Virus record (IMG/VR): IMGVR_UViG_3300024346_000306
Location: 1 to 31,829 of that record
Length of the DNA: 31,829 nucleotides
Direction: 5' to 3' (one strand)
Origin: a virus
Under the pieces are notes generated by a model. That model was not told the DNA's origin. It made no database searches and saw only the letters and a list, made by a program, of their open reading frames with translations. Shown in pieces: positions 18,254-28,088 of this stretch (position 1 is its first letter; every line of letters starts with the position of its first letter). The position numbers and the translations under genes were made by a program.

Positions 18254-18334
18254 TTATCCCCAAAATAAAGAAATAAGTACACAAACAACAGTGATTACAA
18301 AAACACAACTGGCAAAATCAGTAAGACTTCCCAT
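18254..18334 (-). CDS. Tiny 26-aa membrane peptide
   Basis: A 26-codon gene with a strong ribosome binding site (GAAGGAG, six bases from ATG). Product MGSLTDFASCVFVITVVCVL plus ISLFWG: a single transmembrane helix and almost nothing else. It overlaps the upstream 49-aa gene and its stop lies inside the next gene's ribosome binding region. Confidence 0.5.
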   Translation of the reverse strand: MGSLTDFASCVFVITVVCVLISLFWG

Positions 18335-18467
18335 TTCTAGCTCCTTCAATTAATACCCAACCTAGCTGCCTACGGACTTCTTCAATAGTTGGATAAATAG
18401 GTTGTTTGGTTCTATCCCTATTCATCCAATGCCTAACTGCCTCTTTGCTTGGTTTTGTTATTTGCAT
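18318..18467 (-). CDS. Small 49-aa phage protein, first gene of the operon
   Basis: 49 codons. MQITKPSKEAVRHWMNRDRT ... PTIEEVRRQLGWVLIE matches a recurrent small phage protein pattern (KPSKEAVRxWL ... PxxEQIRRELGW). It is the first gene after the paired palindrome promoter at 18512-18541, preceded by GAGGGG. It is presumably made early. Function unknown. Confidence 0.6.
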   Translation of the reverse strand: MQITKPSKEAVRHWMNRDRTKQPIYPTIEEVRRQLGWVLIEGARNGKSY

Positions 18468-18511: not shown

Positions 18512-18541
18512 ATTGTACAACGTATTCAGGTGTTGTACAAC
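18512..18541 (-). promoter_or_regulatory. Paired-palindrome promoter/operator (copy 1)
   Basis: ATTGTACAAC (18512-18521) and GTTGTACAAC (18532-18541), 20 bp apart. On the minus strand this reads TTGTAC (-35 position), 17 bp, TACAAT (-10 position), about 45 bp before the ATG at 18467. The same arrangement recurs near 20012, 24781 and 27668. Confidence 0.7.
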
Positions 18542-18559
18542 ACTATTTTTTAAAATAGT

Positions 18560-18873
18560 TGTCCCTCATTACATCACCGTGAGGGACGTCGGTTGTTGTT
18601 TGTCGGGCTACCTTCATTTCTACGTACTGCCTCGATCAATGGCTTTAACGGGCTCGGGTACTAGCCGTCCAATTCCAGTCATGCGACTAACAACAAATTT
18701 GAAAACTACGCCCACAATTGCCCGTAGGTCGAGGGTTGCTTTCGCTGGCTCTTTGCAGTTTTCAAATTTGTTACCCCTCTTGCGAAGGGCTTGTACTAAC
18801 CGAATCGGCCATTCTATTTAGCTTCGGTCGCCGTTTATGGAGTGCTGCCGGGTATTCTTAATTCTATCTGGTT
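18560..18873 (-). other. Structured gene-free region (possible ncRNA or gene remnant)
   Basis: No convincing gene starts in the gap between the thymidylate-synthase-like stop and the 18467 operon. The base composition looks richer in G+C than the neighbours. On the minus strand there is a 57-codon stretch without a start (reading ... RKRGNKFENCKEPAKATLDL ... SRMTGIGRLVPEPVKAIDRGST), then in another frame a second open stretch ending VARQTTTDVPHGDVMRDNYF. These may be remains of a frameshifted gene. Several hairpins are present, including 18561-18587 (GTCCCTCA with TGAGGGAC), which could end transcription before copy 1 of the promoter. Confidence 0.4.
18692..18772. repeat. 16-bp perfect inverted repeat
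   Basis: AACAAATTTGAAAACT (18692-18707) is the exact reverse complement of 18757-18772, with 49 bases between. In RNA this would form a stable 16-bp stem inside the gene-free region. Confidence 0.8.
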
Positions 18874-19695
18874 TTATACAGCCATCGTCATTTTGATTGG
18901 CTCACCATGAGAGTAGCCTGCTAAGCGTACTGATGTACGCTTAAATGATGTTACGGGGGCACCTAACGCAGACTCAAGCACTAAAGTCGGGGGCTTGTGA
19001 ATCTCACGTTGTATATACGCCCTTACACCCTCATCATTAGATGTGTATATATGCGCATCGGCTAAAAAGGCAGTTAGCTTTCTAGGTTTTAGCATCAACT
19101 CGTTAGCAATTAGAGTTTGCAATAACGCATAGCTAGCAACATCAAAAGGCAAGCCAAGGGCTATATCAACGGACCGCATATAGAAGCACAAATCTAAAAA
19201 CCCATGAGCAATTGATAGCTGCCACATAACATGGCATGCAGGTAGCGCAACTAATGAGCTATCTTGTGCCTCATCGGGCAACCATGCGGACACTAGCAAA
19301 CGCCTAGAATTTGGGTTTGCTTTGGCTTCCGCAAGTACAAAAGCCAACTGGTCCAAATCCCCCGGTTGGGATCCACGCCAAACGCGACCATAAATAGGAC
19401 CAAGATCTGTGTTATTAGGTCTATTTGTTCTTGCATTAAAATCCGCAAGGTTTGCGTCCCAAATATGACAACCTCGTGCGTGGAATTCACGAATATCGTG
19501 AATTCCATGTATAAAGCATTCAAGCTCGGCTGCAACAACGTTAAATGCTAATTTACGACCTGTTATAGCGGGGAACCCGTCTCGTAAATCAAAATCAATG
19601 ACTTCATGATGCACGCTACGTACTTCTCCGGCACGGGACTTTTTTAAAACACCGTTGGAATAAACACGGCTAATTAGGTTGCGATAGTCTTTCAT
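18874..19695 (-). CDS. Thymidylate-synthase-family enzyme, predicted dCMP-specific
   Basis: 273 residues, full ThyA length. Visible motifs: the helix with E57 of AAELECF, W79 of IWDAN, LGPIYGRVWR (Y102), NPNSRRLLVSAW (R131/R132 phosphate binding), LPACHVMWQL with catalytic C154, FYMRSVDIALGLPFDVASYALL, DAHIY (H215, Y217) and C-terminal IKMTMAV for folate closure. The key oddity is D185 in GLPFD: ThyA enzymes have Asn here (GLPFN), which recognises uracil, while dCMP hydroxymethylases have Asp, and Asn-to-Asp mutants of ThyA prefer dCMP. I therefore predict a dCMP methylase or hydroxymethylase rather than an ordinary thymidylate synthase; which product is made cannot be told. SD AAGG precedes the ATG. 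Confidence 0.82.
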   Translation of the reverse strand: MKDYRNLISRVYSNGVLKKSRAGEVRSVHHEVIDFDLRDGFPAITGRKLAFNVVAAELECFIHGIHDIREFHARGCHIWDANLADFNARTNRPNNTDLGPIYGRVWRGSQPGDLDQLAFVLAEAKANPNSRRLLVSAWLPDEAQDSSLVALPACHVMWQLSIAHGFLDLCFYMRSVDIALGLPFDVASYALLQTLIANELMLKPRKLTAFLADAHIYTSNDEGVRAYIQREIHKPPTLVLESALGAPVTSFKRTSVRLAGYSHGEPIKMTMAV

Positions 19696-19703
19696 AACTT
19701 ACC

Positions 19704-19790
19704 TTAAAATAAATAAATAAAATACATTAAACAATCAGCAATATAATCTGCCAAGACAACCGGGACAAACACAAACGTTATTTGTTTCAT
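19704..19790 (-). CDS. Tiny 28-aa hydrophobic peptide
   Basis: A 28-codon frame between a conserved small gene and the thymidylate-synthase-like gene. MKQITFVFVPVVLADYIADC then LMYFIYLF is largely hydrophobic and could sit in the membrane. The ribosome binding site is weak (AGAAG). It fits the pattern of tiny membrane genes in this phage, but may be chance. Confidence 0.35.
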   Translation of the reverse strand: MKQITFVFVPVVLADYIADCLMYFIYLF

Positions 19791-19798
19791 CTTGACTT

Positions 19799-19969
19799 CT
19801 ATAATAAATCAAAAATGTAATCAGGTTCTAATCCAAGTTCGTCCTGTAGTACCTCTTCTGGATCACAACCATCTGCAACCATATCCCTACACTCTTTTAA
19901 AACTTTACGAGCATCATGTAAATCTAAACCGTCACGTTCCATCAATACTTCAATGATTGGTTGTACCAT
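19799..19969 (-). CDS. Conserved small acidic phage protein (56 aa)
   Basis: 56 residues: VLMERDGLDLHDARKVLKEC ... DPEEVLQDELGLEPDYIFDLL. This pattern (xLMERDGxxxxEAxxLxxEx ... DPEEVLxDExGLEPDYxFDLL) is a recurrent small protein in many phages and mobile elements, role unknown. A strong AGGGGAA precedes the ATG, and it is the first gene after promoter copy 2 (20012-20041). Confidence 0.7.
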   Translation of the reverse strand: MVQPIIEVLMERDGLDLHDARKVLKECRDMVADGCDPEEVLQDELGLEPDYIFDLL

Positions 19970-20011
19970 TTAATTCCCCTGGTTTGTTTTCAAGTGTTGT
20001 GCAATGATTTC

Positions 20012-20041
20012 ATTGTACATCATATTCAAGTGTTGTACAAC
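20012..20041 (-). promoter_or_regulatory. Paired-palindrome promoter/operator (copy 2)
   Basis: ATTGTACATC (20012-20021) and GTTGTACAAC (20032-20041), 20 bp apart, giving TTGTAC-17 bp-TACAAT on the minus strand ahead of the 56-aa gene. It overlaps the last codons of the DNA polymerase gene. A third, weaker half-match, GTTGTGCAAT, lies at 19996-20005. Confidence 0.68.
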
Positions 20042-21822
20042 ACTATTCCCAAATCTTTTAAAATTAATTCAGATTTTGTGACATACCAGGTACGATCTAA
20101 ATTATCAGGGATTGAATCAGGTAGGTTCATTAACGGGATTGCACCATCAGTCATAGCCACCTTGTTCCCATTCTTTTTGTAGTTTATTGCGCCGGTTTCA
20201 TTTGTTGCATAATACCAGCGCACTGCCTTACCTAAATATTTATCACCCTTTACCGCACCACCCGTCACTGAACGAACCGATACAAACTGACGAATGTCAC
20301 TACACATCTTAATAGTCGTGCTGATAGGTATATCTAACTGAAGATAATCAATAACCGCTTGAGTACAAATTTGAGCAGTAGGAGTTTTAGATAATTCTGC
20401 ATCGGCGTAAGTACCTTTTGATTTATATGAGCTATCGGGTTTAAGGGCTAGGTAGTTGTTAATATCTCGGGAATAAATTGCAGTGTATAGTGTCTCTTCA
20501 GTATTAAACCCAGTGGTCTGTTCCCATTGAGCGATAACCTGGTCCAAAAGTGCCTTGTTCTTTACAGGGCAATAAATAACAATGCCGTCTGTATTTGCAC
20601 TCACGACCCTGATTCCACAAGCTTCAATGGTCTCTATCAACATCAATAAACAAAGTTGCCCTGTAACGGTAGTTTGAATGAGCAGGTTCGGGCCATACAA
20701 CGCTGACCACCTGGACCCGAACTTACCAAAACTACCATTGATGGTAACCTTAAGAGACTCATTAACGACTTTGTTACCTTCTCGTTTTGCTTTGATCCGT
20801 TTATCTACAAGATTTTTATATACAGTCAAAAAATCTTTACCGATATGCTTAGGGTAGAGTTGCTGACTCAAGATGATATTTGGGTAGTAACTAGTCACAT
20901 CTCTATCAATAACCATATAATCCTGGTCAGAGAGGTAATGTACCTTTTTCTCACAAGAATGAATCCCACCAATGCCCAACTGATACTCACTAGAACCTAA
21001 TGCAACCTTGAGCTTATTGACTCCTTCAGGTTCCAGTACGTTGCCTTTTTCATCGAGCGTAAATGGTTGTGTAGTGAATACACCTAGTGCTCTTTGAAAA
21101 TCTGGGTGAGAAAATTTGATAAATGGTGGAGCGACATATTTAAAAGAGAAGTCTTTAGGTAATTCAGGTCTAAAGACTCGCTCGCCTTTTATTGCCTCAA
21201 TCTGTTTTTTGATTACCGCTTCGGCAATTTGTGCGTCTGACTTTGAGCGCAGGTCAATGCTGTATTCAACTCCCATTTGTTCTCGCAATGCAATCTGACT
21301 CTTCAATCGTGTATAAAGATCGATTGTTGTATCTAGGTCGTTAATGCAATAACTTCCCAATAGTTCACGCTCGTCAAAATTAATGAGTGCACTAGGTTCA
21401 ATAGGTAGATCTTGCATCCGCTTACTATGCAACCTTCCCCCGTAAATCTTTAAACTCGCCTTACCTGGGGCCACATCAATTAAATCAATGTGGTCAATGT
21501 ATTTACATTTAGGCAGTGAGTAGTTTGATTCGGCATCCCATGCCTTCAGGTCATTGACAATAATGTCGTCAGATAGATCTTTTAGCAGTTGATTATCAAA
21601 ATTGGCGATTGCACCTTTTAGCAATAGTAAGTCGTAACGCTTACCGTTAAAAGTCACAATAGTATATTTTGACAGTATGGCTTTCAATTGTTCTACGTCA
21701 AATTCTGACCAGGTTGAACGCTCGAAGTTCACAACTTTACCGTTCTCAATAGACTTAATCGCAATCAAAAAATAATTGGTATAGCACTCAATATCTAATA
21801 CACATTTTGGCCGATTAGTCAT
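20026..21822 (-). CDS. Family B DNA polymerase
   Basis: 598 residues from the ATG at 21822 (GGGAG about 10 bases upstream; a GTG at 21843 is an alternative). The exonuclease domain has ExoI VLDIECYTNYF, ExoII TFNGKRYDLLLL and ExoIII YCINDLDTT. The polymerase domain has motif A DVTSYYPNIIL, motif B LKVTINGSFGKFG and motif C SANTDGIVI. Motif C has Asn in place of the first Asp of the usual DTD but keeps the essential second Asp, as in many small phage B polymerases. It replicates the phage genome with proofreading. At about 600 residues it is shorter than T4 gp43 and lacks obvious protein-priming inserts. It overlaps the dCMP deaminase gene by eight bases. Confidence 0.93.
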   Translation of the reverse strand: MTNRPKCVLDIECYTNYFLIAIKSIENGKVVNFERSTWSEFDVEQLKAILSKYTIVTFNGKRYDLLLLKGAIANFDNQLLKDLSDDIIVNDLKAWDAESNYSLPKCKYIDHIDLIDVAPGKASLKIYGGRLHSKRMQDLPIEPSALINFDERELLGSYCINDLDTTIDLYTRLKSQIALREQMGVEYSIDLRSKSDAQIAEAVIKKQIEAIKGERVFRPELPKDFSFKYVAPPFIKFSHPDFQRALGVFTTQPFTLDEKGNVLEPEGVNKLKVALGSSEYQLGIGGIHSCEKKVHYLSDQDYMVIDRDVTSYYPNIILSQQLYPKHIGKDFLTVYKNLVDKRIKAKREGNKVVNESLKVTINGSFGKFGSRWSALYGPNLLIQTTVTGQLCLLMLIETIEACGIRVVSANTDGIVIYCPVKNKALLDQVIAQWEQTTGFNTEETLYTAIYSRDINNYLALKPDSSYKSKGTYADAELSKTPTAQICTQAVIDYLQLDIPISTTIKMCSDIRQFVSVRSVTGGAVKGDKYLGKAVRWYYATNETGAINYKKNGNKVAMTDGAIPLMNLPDSIPDNLDRTWYVTKSELILKDLGIVLYNT

Positions 21823-22246
21823 GCTTGATAAACTCCCATTCACGACCGCTTGCTAGCCATAATTCTTTGCCACTAGCCACATAATCTTCATCAACAACAA
21901 TTCGTTTTATTCCTGTACACAGCGCTAATTTTGTGCAGCTAATACATGGGGCAGTAGTACAATACATTGTGTCAGCTGCGTCAAAATCTTTAAGTCGGGC
22001 AATGGCATTTTGTTCGGCATGCGCAGACATACACAAGTCTAACCATGTTCCTGAAGGTAAATCCGCACCAATGCACGGGCTAATAGTGCAATGGGCTGAC
22101 CCGGAATAAGATCCGTTGTAACCTGAAGACAGGATATATCCTTTACCTGTAATTACGGCCCCCACTCGCCTACGAGCACAAGTTGCTCTTTTAGCGAACA
22201 CTCGGGCAACTTCCATATAAGTACAATCTAATGTCGGCCTAGTCAT
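21815..22246 (-). CDS. dCMP deaminase
   Basis: 143 residues of the zinc-dependent deaminase family: SAHAEQNAIA (zinc ligand H76, catalytic E78) and TTAPCISCTKLAL (zinc ligands C101, C104), plus the dCMP-specific N-terminal VGAVITGKGYILSSGYNGS region. It converts dCMP to dUMP, feeding thymidylate synthesis. Lying between the DNA polymerase and the hydroxymethylase genes, it competes for the same dCMP pool. SD AAGGT precedes the ATG. Confidence 0.93.
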   Translation of the reverse strand: MTRPTLDCTYMEVARVFAKRATCARRRVGAVITGKGYILSSGYNGSYSGSAHCTISPCIGADLPSGTWLDLCMSAHAEQNAIARLKDFDAADTMYCTTAPCISCTKLALCTGIKRIVVDEDYVASGKELWLASGREWEFIKHD

Positions 22247-22258
22247 ATAGTGTTTACC

Positions 22259-22426
22259 TTATTTGCACAACTTATTTTGTAAATTAGGTGTATTTTTTAG
22301 TTCTAATGCTTGAATACTTTTTTCAATCTTATCGATTCTGTATATTTCATGGACGATAATACTAACAAGCAGTGTTGTTAGTAAAAATAAAAGAACAAAT
22401 AGAATTGCTTCAAAAAACCATTTCAT
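22259..22426 (-). CDS. Small single-pass membrane protein (55 aa)
   Basis: 55 codons with a good ribosome binding site (AAGGGG, five bases from ATG). MKWFFEAILFVLLFLLTTLL then VSIIVHEIYRIDKIEKSIQA: an N-terminal transmembrane helix followed by a short charged helix. It sits between dCMP hydroxymethylase and dCMP deaminase. Function unknown, possibly a membrane anchor or an exclusion peptide. Confidence 0.55.
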   Translation of the reverse strand: MKWFFEAILFVLLFLLTTLLVSIIVHEIYRIDKIEKSIQALELKNTPNLQNKLCK

Positions 22427-22440
22427 GTTAACCCCTTAAT

Positions 22441-23172
22441 TTATTTACACCATTTACTTGAGGGATTCAAAATCCTGTATTCAGATTTTGAAATTGATAA
22501 CTCGCCTGTTTTTACAAAATGGTCAACTAAATAAAACTGACTCGGATAGACGTGCAAGCTGTTTGCGTTCCAGTATAAATTTCCAATTTTGACTTTAGGG
22601 AAGTGCTTTGATATTTGAGCTTGTGCGAGTAGATGTACTTTTTCATGCCAAGACCTATCTCCCTGGTAATTTACCGTCGCATCATTACTCCGCAGGTTTA
22701 CTATATAGTGTAGCCTATTTGACCGAATTAACAGTTGAGTCGAATAAGTACACATAAAGTCCCGTTTACCTCTACTGACACTATCTTTGTGCATAGTTGG
22801 GCGTATGTAAATCATGACTGCCTGCCTACTATTACGATTAGCCCTAAGCGATAAAATTGCACGGTCAAACTGATTAAAATTTTCCTTACTGAAAATAGCC
22901 CACCCATAATTCGAATTGATGGAGCCATCGTGACCGGCCACCTTGCCCCATATTGCTGGAATAGGTGGAGGTATGTCGGCGATATTTAGTGACTGGCTCA
23001 AATACCATTTCAATTCTCGTTGATTCCAATCCTCATTAGGTACACCAAAAATCATTGGCGAATCTGCGATGAACGAAGCATTGATAATCTCTAAATTTCC
23101 ATCCTCAGAAAAGTCTTCCTCTATCAACTTTTCAGCAAAAATATCCCTGATACTCTGCACAGTCACGTTCAT
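22441..23172 (-). CDS. dCMP 5-hydroxymethylase (T4 gp42-like)
   Basis: 243 residues that follow phage T4 deoxycytidylate hydroxymethylase along the whole length: IINASFIADSPMIFG, RELKWYLSQSL, GSINSNYGWAIFS, NRNSRQAVMIYIRPTM, DFMCTYSTQLLIR (catalytic C141), VNLRSNDATVNYQGDRSWHEKV, SLHVYPSQFYLVDHFVKTGE and SISKSEY. D172 aligns with T4 Asp179, the residue that selects cytosine over uracil. The enzyme would use methylene-THF to make 5-hydroxymethyl-dCMP for incorporation into phage DNA. It overlaps the MazG-like gene by four bases, linking it to a dNTP-hydrolysing partner as in T4 (gp56 with gp42). Confidence 0.92.
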   Translation of the reverse strand: MNVTVQSIRDIFAEKLIEEDFSEDGNLEIINASFIADSPMIFGVPNEDWNQRELKWYLSQSLNIADIPPPIPAIWGKVAGHDGSINSNYGWAIFSKENFNQFDRAILSLRANRNSRQAVMIYIRPTMHKDSVSRGKRDFMCTYSTQLLIRSNRLHYIVNLRSNDATVNYQGDRSWHEKVHLLAQAQISKHFPKVKIGNLYWNANSLHVYPSQFYLVDHFVKTGELSISKSEYRILNPSSKWCK

Positions 23173-24137
23173 CCCCTTTTAAATCTATCGTCTTTGTCTT
23201 TATTATTTTTAAAATGCTCCATCAGGATAAAGAGCTGCGTTCCAGCGTGAGCTAAATGGCTTAAACCGGATTCTTGGTCGTTATCCTCACCTGCCCAAAA
23301 TAACATCATATGGCGGATAATTGATCCGTAAGTCCTTGACCATACTACCGTGTCACCATCACGATACGAATTCGCATAATATTTTTTTGCACCAAAATCA
23401 AAAACATTGGCCACTTGCATCAATTGGTCGATTGGCAAAAGATCGACTCGCACTTTATGGGTATCATCTTTTGGACAAGGTCGAATAGGGTTATGTTTAT
23501 GCTCAACGATGGGGTTATGTTTATGCTCAACGATGGGGTTAGGCTTAGCTACCTGTTTCATCCAAGACGGGGACATGTCAGATAAGATAAAAGGGGTATT
23601 TAATGTATCGATATAATGTAGAGGTGGTGGGGGTGTTCCTCTCACTCGGTCCATGCGTTCTTTGCTAATTATGTCCTTCAAAGTTGCTTCAGGTCCAGTC
23701 CAGCCTTTTGGCTTAACAAGATCACGTTTAAAGCCACCCCGCTTTTCGCCATTTTGACCTAATTCTTTAGCCATATTTGCACGCATGACTGCCTCAAAAC
23801 CCTGGAGCAACGGGAAACCCTGACGTTCGAGCGTACCTATAGCAAACACGATCAAATCCAGTAGTGCGTCATATTGATCGACGGAATTTTTTGCGTCTTT
23901 ATACTCATCTAATTCTTCTTGCATTGCTGCAACTCTAAAATCAAATTCGTCTTTGGTCAGCAATGTAGGTCCAACTGTGTTATTCAGTCCAAACTTTTCG
24001 TGCATTGCTTTTACTAAATCCATCAATCTCGATTCCATAATTTCCTCTATTTGATTTTCTTTGATAGGTCTTGGGCAATTCCAATGGTAGCCGTTTATCC
24101 CACTGCAAGTATTGCAGTAATCTTCATTTTCACCCAT
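23169..24137 (-). CDS. MazG-like NTP pyrophosphohydrolase fused to dATP/dGTP diphosphohydrolase-like (MazZ) domain
   Basis: 322 residues from the ATG at 24137, chosen because GGAG sits six bases upstream; an ATG at 24191 is possible but would translate through a strong hairpin. A short Cys motif (YCNTCSGxxGYHWNCP) starts the protein. The first domain (LVKAMHEKFGL ... MQEELDEYKDA ... YDALLDLIVFAIGT) is an all-alpha MazG/PRA-PH-type pyrophosphohydrolase. After a linker with a duplicated NPIVEHKH comes a DUF5664/MazZ-like domain (DLLPIDQLMQVANVFDFGAKKYYANS ... SIIRHMMLFWAGE). Together they could degrade dNTPs, including dCTP to dCMP for the hydroxymethylase. Exact substrates are not visible. Confidence 0.78.
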   Translation of the reverse strand: MGENEDYCNTCSGINGYHWNCPRPIKENQIEEIMESRLMDLVKAMHEKFGLNNTVGPTLLTKDEFDFRVAAMQEELDEYKDAKNSVDQYDALLDLIVFAIGTLERQGFPLLQGFEAVMRANMAKELGQNGEKRGGFKRDLVKPKGWTGPEATLKDIISKERMDRVRGTPPPPLHYIDTLNTPFILSDMSPSWMKQVAKPNPIVEHKHNPIVEHKHNPIRPCPKDDTHKVRVDLLPIDQLMQVANVFDFGAKKYYANSYRDGDTVVWSRTYGSIIRHMMLFWAGEDNDQESGLSHLAHAGTQLFILMEHFKNNKDKDDRFKRG

Positions 24138-24151
24138 TTTAATCTCCATAA

Positions 24152-24179
24152 CAACCGACCAAAGCAACTTGGTCGGTTG
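24152..24179 (-). terminator. Strong 11-bp hairpin between genes
   Basis: CAACCGACCAA (24152-24162) pairs exactly with TTGGTCGGTTG (24169-24179), six-base loop. It lies between the DUF2815 stop and the ATG at 24137. No T-tract follows, so it is more likely an RNA-processing, stability or attenuation element than a full terminator. Confidence 0.5.
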
Positions 24180-24187
24180 GACTAACA

Positions 24188-24709
24188 TCAACCTAATGGA
24201 TCTTCTTTACTACCAAAATCAGCAAAGTCCTCACTTGCGTCCGTACGACCACTAAAGGCTTCACCGTCTTTAGTTTTCATGACATTGTCAAGTGCGATAG
24301 ACACGCCTTTGCCACCTGTAGGATGATCCCAAGCATACGCACGAATTGAGGCACGATAGTATGCTCCGCTGTATATCTCCTCAGCATCCAAAATTGGCTG
24401 CAAAGAAGAGTCAACAATCCCGGGTTTGTTGTTGCTGCAGGCTTGAATCACAAAGCAATCGACAAATTCCGGACGGTCTTCTTCATCTCCATCTTTAAAT
24501 GGTGACTTCAATTTAGGTGGGATTTTGCCGAATTTTGCTTTAGCTGTTTCGTCAACTAAAGCTTTAACCTTAGCAATAAATGGATCATTCTTAGGGATAG
24601 GCATTGTGATGGAATACCGAGGTTTTGCTGTTTCTGAACCCTTAATTGCATGGGGAACAAGTAAGTGAACAAATGAACCACGGAATTCCGGAGTGATAAG
24701 TTTCGACAT
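24188..24709 (-). CDS. DUF2815 single-stranded DNA-binding protein
   Basis: 173 residues matching DUF2815, an OB-fold ssDNA-binding family related in role to T7 gp2.5: LITPEFRGSFVHLLVPHAI, PRYSITMPIPKNDPFI, IYSGAYYRASIRAYAWDHPTGGKGVSIALDNVMKTKDG. The tail is acidic (DASEDFADFGSKEDPLG), as in SSBs that bind partner proteins. It is the first gene after promoter copy 3 and would coat replication intermediates. Confidence 0.88.
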   Translation of the reverse strand: MSKLITPEFRGSFVHLLVPHAIKGSETAKPRYSITMPIPKNDPFIAKVKALVDETAKAKFGKIPPKLKSPFKDGDEEDRPEFVDCFVIQACSNNKPGIVDSSLQPILDAEEIYSGAYYRASIRAYAWDHPTGGKGVSIALDNVMKTKDGEAFSGRTDASEDFADFGSKEDPLG

Positions 24710-24780
24710 TTTATATCTTTCGACAAGGTTAAGGATTTAGACGATTTTGTTGCAAATTCATTTCAACTTGCAACGGGTTC

Positions 24781-24811
24781 ATTGTACAACACTTTGAATG
24801 TGTTGTACAAC
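24781..24811 (-). promoter_or_regulatory. Paired-palindrome promoter/operator (copy 3)
   Basis: ATTGTACAAC (24781-24790) and GTTGTACAAC (24802-24811), 21 bp apart. On the minus strand: TTGTAC, 18 bp, TACAAT, about 75 bp before the SSB start. Downstream, a 7-bp inverted repeat (GTTGCAA 24749-24755, TTGCAAC 24768-24774) lies in the leader. Confidence 0.7.
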
Positions 24812-24816
24812 GCTTT

Positions 24817-25914
24817 TTACACTGAATCAAAATCTTTTTTAGCCGATTGATTTTTATCTACCGAAGCCCTTTTGTCCTTTTCAGGAGCAATAGTCGGACG
24901 GCCTCGACTAACTTCAACCAACTCTTCAAAATTAATATCTTGATCCTTCAAAGCTTTTTCCATCTGAGCCACACTCAACAATGATACAGGGGTGTAGATA
25001 TTTTTGCAACCTTGGTCTTTTAACCATTCTTCAGCTGCTGACTCATTTACCCAGCTACGACTTCGGCGTCCTTCAACAACTTTCCAGCCTTTAATTTGAC
25101 CACCATTCAGCAGAGTATCTTTTGCCTTAGATTCGACTGCCTCAATAAATGCTTTGAGCAATCCTAATTTGGGCATCCACTCTTCAATATGGTCTGTTTG
25201 AAGTCCTGCAAAATCTGTTGATGCGGCCTCATTTGCTAGCCTTTTCATCTCAGGGCACTTATTGACTACGGGACACCATTTGCATGCCTTGTCACTCATC
25301 ACAAATTTGTTAGGTTCGTTTTGAATTGCCGCGTATGAGCGTTTAAGCTCATTTGCAAAAGCCAACAAATCTTCTAGACTAATTGTCCAATGCTCAATAC
25401 TAGCCATTGGTGGTTGGACAATCGTCATTGTTATTGTCTCAATATCAAAGGCAGGGGCGTATTTGAGGTAGGCCCCTAACGCATAACACATTAATTGAGT
25501 GTTGTAGTCAGCTTCAACCCTAACTCCTGCTCCGGTCTTTAGGTCAATCACGCGCATATTAGTATTGTGAATCACAATACCGTCTGCCGTACCCCAACAA
25601 TCATTGATAACCTCTACAAGAGTGACCTTCTCTTCGTAGAACTTGTGACCATCAAGTGCAAGCATGTAGTTGACATATATTTGCACCATGTCAACCATGT
25701 CATGGGTGATAAGATGGTTGTTAACTGTTTTTCCTAAAAAGCTTTTTGGTTCAAGGGATTTAGTCAAGCACTGTTCAGACACTTCATGCATTGCTGTGCC
25801 TTTTTCAGCGTACACGCTTGACTTACCCCCTTGAATATCAGGCTCTAAATGCACACTACCTGGACAGGTCATCCATCTTGAGCTAGCACTCGGAGAAAGT
25901 TTTGCGTGAGCCAT
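24817..25914 (-). CDS. DUF2800 PD-(D/E)XK nuclease with Fe-S cluster cysteines
   Basis: 365 residues. The nuclease core is CWGTADGIVIHNTNMRVIDLKTG (D111, then D124 and K126), followed by QLMCY (Q140). The cysteine set C17 (SRWMTCPGS) plus C211, C214 and C220 (CKWCPVVNKCPE) is the Cas4/AddB-type 4Fe-4S arrangement that locks the nuclease fold. The last 90 residues form a helical domain (LKDQGCKNIYTPVSLLSVAQMEKAL). The family works as a phage exonuclease in recombination and replication. Its stop overlaps nothing on the right except the helicase neighbour, sharing one base with it at 25914. Confidence 0.87.
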   Translation of the reverse strand: MAHAKLSPSASSRWMTCPGSVHLEPDIQGGKSSVYAEKGTAMHEVSEQCLTKSLEPKSFLGKTVNNHLITHDMVDMVQIYVNYMLALDGHKFYEEKVTLVEVINDCWGTADGIVIHNTNMRVIDLKTGAGVRVEADYNTQLMCYALGAYLKYAPAFDIETITMTIVQPPMASIEHWTISLEDLLAFANELKRSYAAIQNEPNKFVMSDKACKWCPVVNKCPEMKRLANEAASTDFAGLQTDHIEEWMPKLGLLKAFIEAVESKAKDTLLNGGQIKGWKVVEGRRSRSWVNESAAEEWLKDQGCKNIYTPVSLLSVAQMEKALKDQDINFEELVEVSRGRPTIAPEKDKRASVDKNQSAKKDFDSV

Positions 25915-26321
25915 TATTTAGCTTCTTTCAAACGAGCCATTGTTAGGATATACTCCGATTCAAGAATTTCGCTGATTTTATTTGCGTTAAAGTCTTTCAG
26001 TATTGAAAGAACCATTTCACGTTTGCCTGAACCAATCAACTTTGCTGCAGCTTCCCTCAGGTCGTCTAGGGTAACTGCTTCGGCACTTTGTTCAGTTTTG
26101 GCTTCAGGTTCAGTTTTGGCTTCAGGTTCAGTTTTGGCTTCAGGTTCAGAGGTAGCCTTAGCCTTGTTCTCAGGTTCAGCCTTAGCCTTGTTCTCAGGTT
26201 CAGTCTTAGATTTAGTCCTTTTTTCTTCAGTTGGCTGAGCAATAACAGGCGTATTGGTGGTTACACCTTCAAACAGGTCGGCCAATTCACGTAATTTTGT
26301 TGCAATTAGATTTGTGTTCAT
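25914..26321 (-). CDS. Possible internal start: C-terminal protein of the helicase gene (135 aa)
   Basis: ATG at 26321 lies in frame inside the helicase gene and is preceded by AAAGGAA at an ideal seven-base distance. The protein would start MNTNLIATKLRELADLFEG, which reads like a natural N-terminus and marks the end of homology to SNF2 helicases. It may be an overlapping second product or the relic of two genes that fused after loss of a stop. Confidence 0.4.
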   Translation of the reverse strand: MNTNLIATKLRELADLFEGVTTNTPVIAQPTEEKRTKSKTEPENKAKAEPENKAKATSEPEAKTEPEAKTEPEAKTEQSAEAVTLDDLREAAAKLIGSGKREMVLSILKDFNANKISEILESEYILTMARLKEAK

Positions 26322-27533
26322 TTTTGATTCCTTTATGATATGGTCAATAACATCCATTTTTGTTAGTACTTTATGTAGTATTAATTCATCAATGGATCCT
26401 GCAATCACAAGCAAGTCAATGGTTACATTACTTGCTTGTGAAATTCTGTGAACCCTGTCCGCCGCTTGTTGCAACTCGGCGGGTGACCAGGGTGATTCTA
26501 CGAAAACAACATGATTGGCAGCAGTCAAGGTTATTCCTACACCTGCAGCTTTAATATTTCCAATAAACACCCGGCACTCGGGGTTATTTTGAAAAGATTC
26601 AACGGCTTTTTGCCTATCCTCATTTTTGACTGATCCTGTAATATGAACAGGTTTGTAATCAGTCAAAGCGGCCATAAGTTGTTCAATAATGTGGGTGTGG
26701 TGGGCAAATACAACGACCTTATTGGTTTGTTCAAGGCAGTCTTTTATATAGGTCACAGACTGGTCCAATTTGCGATCCGCATTCAATTTACGAATGTCAG
26801 ATATTGCCTCAAACGGAATAGAATCAGGTTTGTCAATATGGGACAAATCAAATTTAGATTCGCGTGAATCCACAGGTAAGTCTAATGAAATGACTCGGTA
26901 AGTTTTTGGTGGTAAATCAATGCACTGCTCTTTAGTCATACGCAACATTACGGGTTCAAGCAATTTAACAAGCTGCTCTTGTCTGCTTGATCCGCTAAAG
27001 TCGTAAACGTTCCAAGGTGTTAACCAACCACCACAATACTCCATACCAAATTGAAAATAATTAAGTTTGGTAGCACCAATTGAATGCACTAATGTCCAAC
27101 ACTCAATAGGCCTATTAACCACAGGTGTTCCGGTTAATAGTCTAACTCTTGGTGTGAACTTAATGAGGTTGCAGACTAGTTTGGTGCGTTTGGCTTTATT
27201 GTTTTTACAGTAATGGGCCTCGTCAACAATTAATGTTTTGTAGTTGGGTAAATGGTATTTTGAAACAACATCATAATTAATGATGGTTACGTCTGAACCA
27301 TTAAAACGGTCTTTTGATCCACGAATGACTTGTGTAGACAACTCAGGCCGCCAAGTCTTCAACTCATTTTGCCAATTCAACTTAAGGCTCGCCGGGCAAA
27401 CAACTAACGCCGGAGTGACTAGATCTAAGCTAGATATACACGTTTTACCCAAACCCATATCTAAAGCTAACAATGCTTTAGGTCTAGACTTAAGCCAATC
27501 TAACGCTTGTTTTTGATGGGTGTAAAGTTTCAT
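25914..27533 (-). CDS. SNF2-type helicase fused to a C-terminal phage domain
   Basis: 539 residues from the ATG at 27533, which overlaps the preceding 37-aa gene by four bases; ATG 27548 is an alternative. Helicase motifs: Walker A DMGLGKT (25-31), motif II LIVDEAHYC (DEAH, 104-107), LLTGTPV (about 130), and the second RecA domain with AGVGITLTAANHVVF and QQAADRVHRISQ (motif VI). After about residue 404 comes a new segment (MNTNLIATKLRELADLFEGV), an EPEAKT-rich repetitive linker, and a small helical domain (LDDLREAAAKLIGSGKREMVLSI and onwards) resembling domains found in phage recombination proteins. It probably remodels DNA during replication or recombination. Confidence 0.88.
   Translation of the reverse strand: MKLYTHQKQALDWLKSRPKALLALDMGLGKTCISSLDLVTPALVVCPASLKLNWQNELKTWRPELSTQVIRGSKDRFNGSDVTIINYDVVSKYHLPNYKTLIVDEAHYCKNNKAKRTKLVCNLIKFTPRVRLLTGTPVVNRPIECWTLVHSIGATKLNYFQFGMEYCGGWLTPWNVYDFSGSSRQEQLVKLLEPVMLRMTKEQCIDLPPKTYRVISLDLPVDSRESKFDLSHIDKPDSIPFEAISDIRKLNADRKLDQSVTYIKDCLEQTNKVVVFAHHTHIIEQLMAALTDYKPVHITGSVKNEDRQKAVESFQNNPECRVFIGNIKAAGVGITLTAANHVVFVESPWSPAELQQAADRVHRISQASNVTIDLLVIAGSIDELILHKVLTKMDVIDHIIKESKMNTNLIATKLRELADLFEGVTTNTPVIAQPTEEKRTKSKTEPENKAKAEPENKAKATSEPEAKTEPEAKTEPEAKTEQSAEAVTLDDLREAAAKLIGSGKREMVLSILKDFNANKISEILESEYILTMARLKEAK
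26091..26202 (-). repeat. Coding tandem repeats in the helicase linker
   Basis: Three copies of an 18-bp unit (26091-26108, 26109-26126, 26127-26144) encode EPEAKT repeats, followed by two copies of a 24-bp unit (26155-26178, 26179-26202) encoding AEPENKAK. These give a flexible acidic/basic linker of variable length. Confidence 0.85.
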
Positions 27534-27643
27534 TTTACTTTTGCCCATATAAGCAATTTGGTAAAAAGCTTAAGGGCAATTAAACCTGCGCCTATAAACG
27601 GGGACAGCAACAACATAGGCAGCAATATAATCCAAATTCGCAT
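27530..27643 (-). CDS. Small 37-aa membrane protein
   Basis: 37 codons with a strong ribosome binding site (GGAGGATTAA). MRIWIILLPMLLLSPFIGAG then LIALKLFTKLLIWAKVK: one or two hydrophobic segments with a basic end. It is the first gene after promoter copy 4 and its stop overlaps the helicase ATG at 27533 (ATGA), showing translational coupling. Function unknown. Confidence 0.55.
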   Translation of the reverse strand: MRIWIILLPMLLLSPFIGAGLIALKLFTKLLIWAKVK

Positions 27644-27667
27644 TTAATCCTCCGTATCAATGGAGGT

Positions 27668-27698
27668 ATTGTACAACGCTTTGAATGCTTTGTACAAC
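27668..27698 (-). promoter_or_regulatory. Paired-palindrome promoter/operator (copy 4)
   Basis: ATTGTACAAC (27668-27677) and TTTGTACAAC (27689-27698), 21 bp apart. On the minus strand: TTGTAC, 18 bp, TACAAT, then the strong ribosome binding site of the 37-aa gene 10-15 bases further. It lies between the helicase operon and the YdaS-like regulator gene. Confidence 0.7.
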
Positions 27699-27713: not shown

Positions 27714-27941
27714 TTACCATGATAAATCAGGTCTGATTTGGGATGCAGTAAGGCCATGCCCGGGCATACTTGCAACCTTTAACACACTATCTCTACCTAC
27801 TTGCCCTCGAGTAAACCAATAACCAATACAGTTGCGGCTAACCTCAAATTGTCGGCCCATTTCAGCTTTTGTCCCATAGTAGGCTAGGATTTTATCAAGC
27901 GCGGCTTTGCACTCAGTTTTCATCAGATTTGACTGTGTCAT
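27714..27941 (-). CDS. YdaS/Cro-like HTH regulator
   Basis: 75 residues. ILAYYGTKAEMGRQFEVSRNCIGYWFTRGQVGRDSVLKV is a helix-turn-helix, and the ending TASQIRPDLSW matches the YdaS/Cro-like family (usually xxELRPDLY). These proteins are the Cro counterparts in many proteobacterial phages and bind short palindromes. The gene is divergent from the primase operon, with palindromes on both sides, so it is the best candidate to bind the GTTGTACAAC-type sites. There is no clear ribosome binding site; M7 at 27923 is an alternative start. Confidence 0.75.
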   Translation of the reverse strand: MTQSNLMKTECKAALDKILAYYGTKAEMGRQFEVSRNCIGYWFTRGQVGRDSVLKVASMPGHGLTASQIRPDLSW

Positions 27942-27964: not shown

Positions 27965-27997
27965 GTACAATTGTACATCTATTTTTTGATTTATAAT
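27965..27997 (+). promoter_or_regulatory. Divergent promoter with 12-bp palindrome
   Basis: GTACAATTGTAC (27965-27976) is a perfect palindrome sharing the TTGTAC/TACAAT words of the four paired sites. TATAAT (27992-27997) downstream is a good -10 box for the plus-strand primase operon, with TTGTAC 15 bp before it (or TAATAC at 17 bp). The minus-strand regulator starts 24 bp on the other side. Confidence 0.6.
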
Positions 27998-28005
27998 ACC
28001 TTTAT

Positions 28006-28088
28006 CATCGGATAGGCCAGCGCGGCCGAAAAGACAGTTCCTAGTCTGTTTTCCGATGGTCCTTTATACTAGGCTGTTTTCTAGGAAC
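28006..28088 (+). promoter_or_regulatory. Structured leader RNA of the primase operon
   Basis: CATCGGA (28006-28012) pairs with TCCGATG (28052-28058), enclosing two hairpins: GGCC/GGCC (28015-28027) and AAA-GA-CAG/CTGTTT around the loop TTCCTAGT. GTTCCTAG (28037-28044), mostly that loop, is the exact complement of CTAGGAAC (28081-28088), which holds the ribosome binding site for the ATG at 28095. The leader could therefore switch between folds that hide or expose the site. Confidence 0.5.

Follow-up and report, generated by a model that had tools for sequence, protein, structure and literature searches.

Putative early promoters with a probable shared palindromic operator and a recurring leader hairpin in an uncultured phage group

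The DNA analysed here, referred to as the window, is a 31,829-base IMG/VR fragment; related records reach up to 56 kb. Its minus strand carries genes for DNA polymerase B (polB), an SNF2-type helicase, an Enc34-type ssDNA-binding protein (SSB) and a small YdaS/Cro-like HTH protein (Table 1). A hydrophobic 37-aa ORF (27530-27643, minus strand) lies directly downstream of promoter 1; its stop codon overlaps an in-frame ATG of the SNF2 helicase gene (ATGA), and a family search with it returned no match. The window also contains two thymidylate-synthase-family genes (18874-19695 and 22441-23172, minus strand), a dCMP deaminase and a dATP/dGTP diphosphohydrolase domain, which together make base modification possible. 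Short direct repeats occur within the dGTPase-like gene (23500-23550) and the SNF2 gene (26080-26200). Searching with the DNA polymerase B of the window yielded 23 related contigs, with identities of 36-77%. In the distant polB phage L033, the ribosome-binding stretch GGAGATAACACAATGTC is repeated, with at least five copies of 14-mers distributed over both strands.

Table 1 Coordinates of the features discussed, in window positions.
Feature	Position	Strand	Remarks
Promoter/operator 1	27668..27698	-	TTGTACAA...18...TACAAT; between YdaS-like gene and SNF2 helicase unit; syntenic in relatives
Promoter/operator 2	24781..24811	-	Between DUF2800 and SSB gene; syntenic in relatives
Promoter/operator 3	20012..20041	-	Right arm ATGTACAAT; directly after polB; syntenic in relatives
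Promoter/operator 4	18512..18541	-	Upstream of 49-aa ORF (18318-18467); no counterpart shown in relatives
5' hairpin at predicted +1 of promoter 2	24749..24774	-	10-bp stem (one G-U), 6-nt loop
YdaS/Cro-like HTH protein	27714..27941	-	75 aa; candidate binder; orthologue adjoins first element in relatives
TGTACAAT	27965..27978	-	-10 and putative operator core of the YdaS-like gene's own promoter; inside GTACAATTGTAC
DNA polymerase B (polB)	20026..21843	-	Query for relatives
SNF2-type helicase	25914..27548	-	Unit proposed to be controlled by site 1
SSB, Enc34-type	24188..24709	-	First listed gene after site 2
int-alpA RNA (RF02996)	28005..28074	+	44.8 bits, cut-off 35.8

Four sites in the window each hold two palindromes, with start-to-start spacings of 20, 20, 21 and 21. 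All four were recovered at the coordinates of the original prediction and in the orientation it had described, reading TTGTAC-N17/18-TACAAT on the minus strand upstream of early genes. Six of the eight palindromes are exact copies of RTTGTACAAY, and the remaining two carry one mismatch (ATTGTACATC at 20012 and TTTGTACAAC at 27689). A start codon follows 25-75 nt downstream of each site, and the genes behind them are an ORF at 18467, a 56-aa ORF at 19969, the SSB gene at 24709 and the 37-aa ORF at 27643. Random occurrence does not account for the pairs: with up to one mismatch and a spacing of 20-21 bp, four are observed as against none in 60 dinucleotide shuffles. Exact TTGTACAA occurs seven times in the window, compared with 1.0 in dinucleotide shuffles. 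Additional palindromes include the near-palindrome GTTGTGCAAT at 19996-20005, next to promoter/operator 3, and the fifth related copy, GTACAATTGTAC, which had been predicted at 27965-27976 and is present there. A further site at 25382/25413 lies inside a gene and differs (GTCC/GGAC), and was taken as chance. When IMG/VR was scanned for the exact pair, 12 other stretches were found, all of them within open frames and mostly coding repeats, which makes the intergenic pair specific to this phage group. An element search in 50,697 phage records gave nothing above chance.

Among the relatives, the element TTGT-N13-18-TTGTACAAT is present in 15 of 23 records, with one to five copies per record, always on a single strand within each record; the reversed control pattern gave 0. 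With the window proteins mapped on the relatives, copies stand at three syntenic positions: one separates the YdaS-like gene from SNF2, a second separates DUF2800 from SSB, and the third follows polB. In this order they match window sites 27668, 24781 and 20012. For relatives chosen by the promoter pattern, the consensus reads AAAATA-TTGT-N-AAAA-GTGTTGTACAAT-N6-ACGGCaannTCGCCGT-CTCAATGTTGTAAAGG-ATG. Of the phage-wide set originally predicted, the early-strand promoters are thus kept at orthologous positions, but the palindrome pair is not a conserved unit, as only the right palindrome with the -10 is invariant. This invariant part is TTGTACAAT, which contains the -10. Intact copies of the left palindrome are seen in the window and in one relative (G001); elsewhere it has decayed to TTGTRYR, keeping the -35-like TTGT as well as complementarity to the right arm, mostly through G-U-compatible changes. 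As a sequence feature, a phage-wide set of putative early promoters with a shared operator is well supported.

The promoter/operator reading had overlooked a hairpin at the predicted +1. A Watson-Crick stem of at least 5 bp begins exactly 6 nt after the -10 at 46 of 54 promoter-defined sites, a set that was entered in part via the hairpin pattern, and every other offset accounts for at most two. In a site set chosen by the promoter pattern rather than the hairpin, nearly all sites of relatives outside one record (L029) carry the stem. Two of its five pairs change on both sides, and the covariation score was reached in 0 of 500 shuffles. Pairing holds in 100% of the cells, but this percentage is partly by construction, as the alignment (A2) was drawn from stem-bearing sites; the compensatory changes are not. 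The element therefore has the covarying stem at a fixed place that is expected of a structured RNA leader. In the window, the hairpin behind site 24781 has the geometry seen in relatives, with an unrelated sequence, and is more stable than shuffled versions (z about -4, 0/200 shuffles); at the other three of the four window sites the +1 stem is absent. An Rfam search with the hairpin from three records (L020, L022 and L079) matched no family.

Since the -10 is built into the promoter pattern, a second collection of sites used the leader as its sole criterion and left the -10 unconstrained. Among these 64 leader-defined sites, TACAAT is found in 61 and TATAAT in one. A second promoter type is seen in relatives at the dCMP deaminase gene and is absent in the window; there, 10 of 11 distinct upstream sequences place TACAAT 7 nt ahead of the ATG, and in one relative the distance is 5 nt. 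For the YdaS-like gene, 18 distinct upstream sequences (L105-L138) have TACAAT at a distance of 5 nt from the ATG. Both promoters, which the original prediction did not include, share TGTACAAT, and their geometry is as expected of leaderless mRNAs, which we predict for the two genes; leaderless mRNA has been reported for lambda cI and paaR2 (PMC8630535). TACAAT is close to TATAAT and has a +1 hairpin or an ATG 5-7 nt downstream, so that a start can be predicted as for a sigma-70-type -10. Three contexts, the +1 hairpin, the dCMP deaminase ATG and the YdaS ATG, agree on this predicted start point, which is the strongest indication that TACAAT is a real -10 and that TGTACA is kept for a further reason. 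Set against TTGACA with a spacer of 16-18, only TTG of the -35 matches, and the spacers are 17-19. A simple promoter scan did not separate the sites from background (28 found, 30.2 expected), and the case for promoters, which we regard as well supported, therefore rests on conservation. Three other assignments were dropped: an intrinsic terminator, since T-rich sequence follows the repeat on the antisense strand only; an N4-like hairpin promoter, since the hairpin here comes after the -10; and a MerR-type spacer dyad, since the spacer length varies.

The complementarity of the two arms allows a different view, in which the promoters are real and the inverted repeat over -35 and -10 acts mainly as an RNA hairpin in read-through transcripts from the previous unit, for example as an RNase III processing site. 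The DNA palindrome would then be a by-product, because the arm TTGTACAA pairs with a copy of itself. In favour of such a role, 398 of 399 cells keep arm pairs 1-7, the left arm showing G-U changes at positions 5-7, but pairs 1-4 are imposed by the search rule (TTGT). Likewise, the surplus of G-U-compatible changes stands out under equal substitution (2e-5), yet is weak (0.10) once two thirds of the substitutions are taken to be transitions. Pair 10 alternates between A-T and G-C, and the promoter stretch is more stably folded than its shuffled versions (mean z -4.2); on the other hand, the window arms differ by non-pairing changes, and the dCMP deaminase promoters keep TTGTACAAT without a left arm. 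We consider this explanation rather unlikely. At these dCMP deaminase promoters (e.g. L015 9570), the left arm and the hairpin are both missing. The single TATAAT site, near 3144 in L015, has lost the right palindrome and retained the left one; the C of TACAAT is therefore no promoter requirement, and the -10 does not by itself account for the right palindrome.

The same site bears on a second possibility, in which the host polymerase, or a phage factor redirecting it, favours TTGTACAAT as an extended -10 and no repressor operator is involved. This would fit the TG that stands directly before TACAAT at nearly every early promoter, even where the left arm is missing. However, the known extended -10 (TGn) has a different spacing, which counts against this explanation, as do the non-consensus C at the invariant third base, the existence of the TATAAT variant, and the fact that TGTACA forms a perfect palindrome adjoining an HTH gene. 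We regard an extended -10 of this kind as improbable. TGTACA exceeds what sigma would need, and nearly all loci whose YdaS-like protein has the SRN..WFTRG helix carry TTGTACAA beside the gene; an operator role of the TGTACA palindrome is therefore likely.

The protein next to this palindrome is the best candidate for its binder. Orthologues of the YdaS-like protein beside the first element are 39-54% identical, and it is the only HTH protein of the window with orthologues, none of the others matching relatives at 1e-4. Thirteen of 13 members match PF15943, as expected of the Cro/YdaS family (best 7.2e-07; the window protein falls below the curated cut-off), and phrog_2856 is matched at 2.8e-07. 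The Xfaso 1 Cro protein (PDB 3bd1) is the best match in both sequence and fold, but with about 20% identity and a weak fold match (E 0.03, model pLDDT 76). Across the YdaS-like proteins, the recognition helix S(R/T)N..(V/I)...WF(T/S)RG is nearly invariant. Where a locus encodes an SRN/STN..WF(T/S)RG helix and its downstream DNA is long enough, TTGTACAA follows the gene at 3-45 nt; L138 stops 2 nt past the gene, and L133 is also too short there for a decision. Two loci with another helix (L139 and L140) have no TTGTACAA at this place. In L030, the YdaS copies are divergent, and TACAAT is kept without TGTACA and without the element. The linkage of helix and motif tracks common descent and does not count as independent evidence. 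In front of nearly every YdaS orthologue, TGTACAAT preceded by A or T is conserved; the YdaS promoter of one relative (G015) is TATAAT without TGTACA, so that autoregulation would not be universal. YdaS of CP-933P binds an intergenic region and represses (PMC8630535), and YdaS-like proteins have also been described as toxins (PMC5700373).

The site could instead be bound by a host regulator or by a phage protein encoded outside the window, as the window is a fragment of 31.8 kb with relatives of up to 56 kb, and another regulator may therefore lie beyond its ends. Against this stand the position of the motif directly beside the YdaS-like gene in relatives with sequence there, and the lack of TTGTACAA enrichment in distant polB phages (AchV4, ACF1, Kmi2C, L030 and L033-L036). 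A binder other than the YdaS-like protein seems to us hardly probable.

The description of the divergent promoter beside the YdaS-like gene had missed an int-alpA RNA on its other side. The RNA begins where the rightward transcript from this promoter is predicted to start, ahead of the primase gene. It is also found above cut-off in one relative (L055, 6024-6092, minus strand); a search of another (L048) at a lax threshold found none.

On balance, we favour control of the early promoters by the YdaS-like protein through their shared operator as the best reading of these sequences. We postulate that the sites serve as early promoters of an apparently strictly lytic phage, each with a weak -35 (TTGT) and a -10 (TACAAT) that would be read by the host housekeeping RNA polymerase. 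The -10 would be embedded in a palindromic operator, TTGTACAA, and the Cro/YdaS-like protein, encoded at the head of the region, would bind this palindrome, with the second, upstream palindrome providing cooperative binding in the window phage. By covering the -10, the protein would shut off or tune down all early units together with its own promoter; repression, rather than another outcome, is what we infer. For most relatives and for one site of the window, we propose an mRNA that begins with the +1 hairpin, whose most likely function is to protect the 5' end. A more speculative idea, which we think doubtful, is that the element is read twice: as DNA, a -10 within a palindromic operator, and in read-through RNA, a folded inverted repeat followed by the second hairpin. 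One cassette would then control initiation and mark the joints of early mRNAs, and a single phage protein or RNase III might act on both the DNA and the RNA.

The proposed scheme gives an uncultured phage group a concrete layout, in which a single small regulator and a single operator would serve several early promoters and the mRNA leader recurs; it looks like one on/off system for the entire replication programme. The parts of this compact promoter-leader cassette are testable singly in an E. coli reporter. No PF00589 tyrosine integrase was found in ten related records, which are incomplete, and a lambda-like CI/Cro switch was rejected on this ground; nor was a CI-like gene seen beside the YdaS-like gene in these incomplete records. 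A search of 84,980 prokaryote genomes returned no relative of polB and hence no prophage or host. Both results are consistent with lytic phages, and the group would illustrate Cro-like control in phages where no lysogeny switch is seen.

We found no similar phage elements in the literature. Parts of the arrangement have counterparts: the T7 gene 10 leader places a hairpin 5' of the ribosome binding site. The same holds for 5' stem-loops that stabilise bacterial mRNAs (PMC7509114). In contrast to both, one geometry is repeated here behind a shared promoter at several phage genes. Lambdoid Cro repressors and YdaS/PaaR2 of CP-933P likewise combine a small HTH protein near a divergent promoter with palindromic operators overlapping the promoter boxes (PMC8630535), but the putative operators described here lie at no fewer than four early promoters over about 10 kb, rather than in a compact OR/OL. 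The stoperators of mycobacteriophage cluster A also represent one repressor with many dispersed sites oriented with transcription; they are, however, 13-bp asymmetric sequences, 20-30 per genome and mostly off promoters (PMC6550527). The present sites are palindromic, few and at promoters, all four window pairs lying just upstream of genes, and were not assigned to the stoperators. Dispersed operators of one regulator are thus of a known kind; what is new is that they occur here together with a recurring +1 hairpin, in phages in which no lysogeny module was seen.
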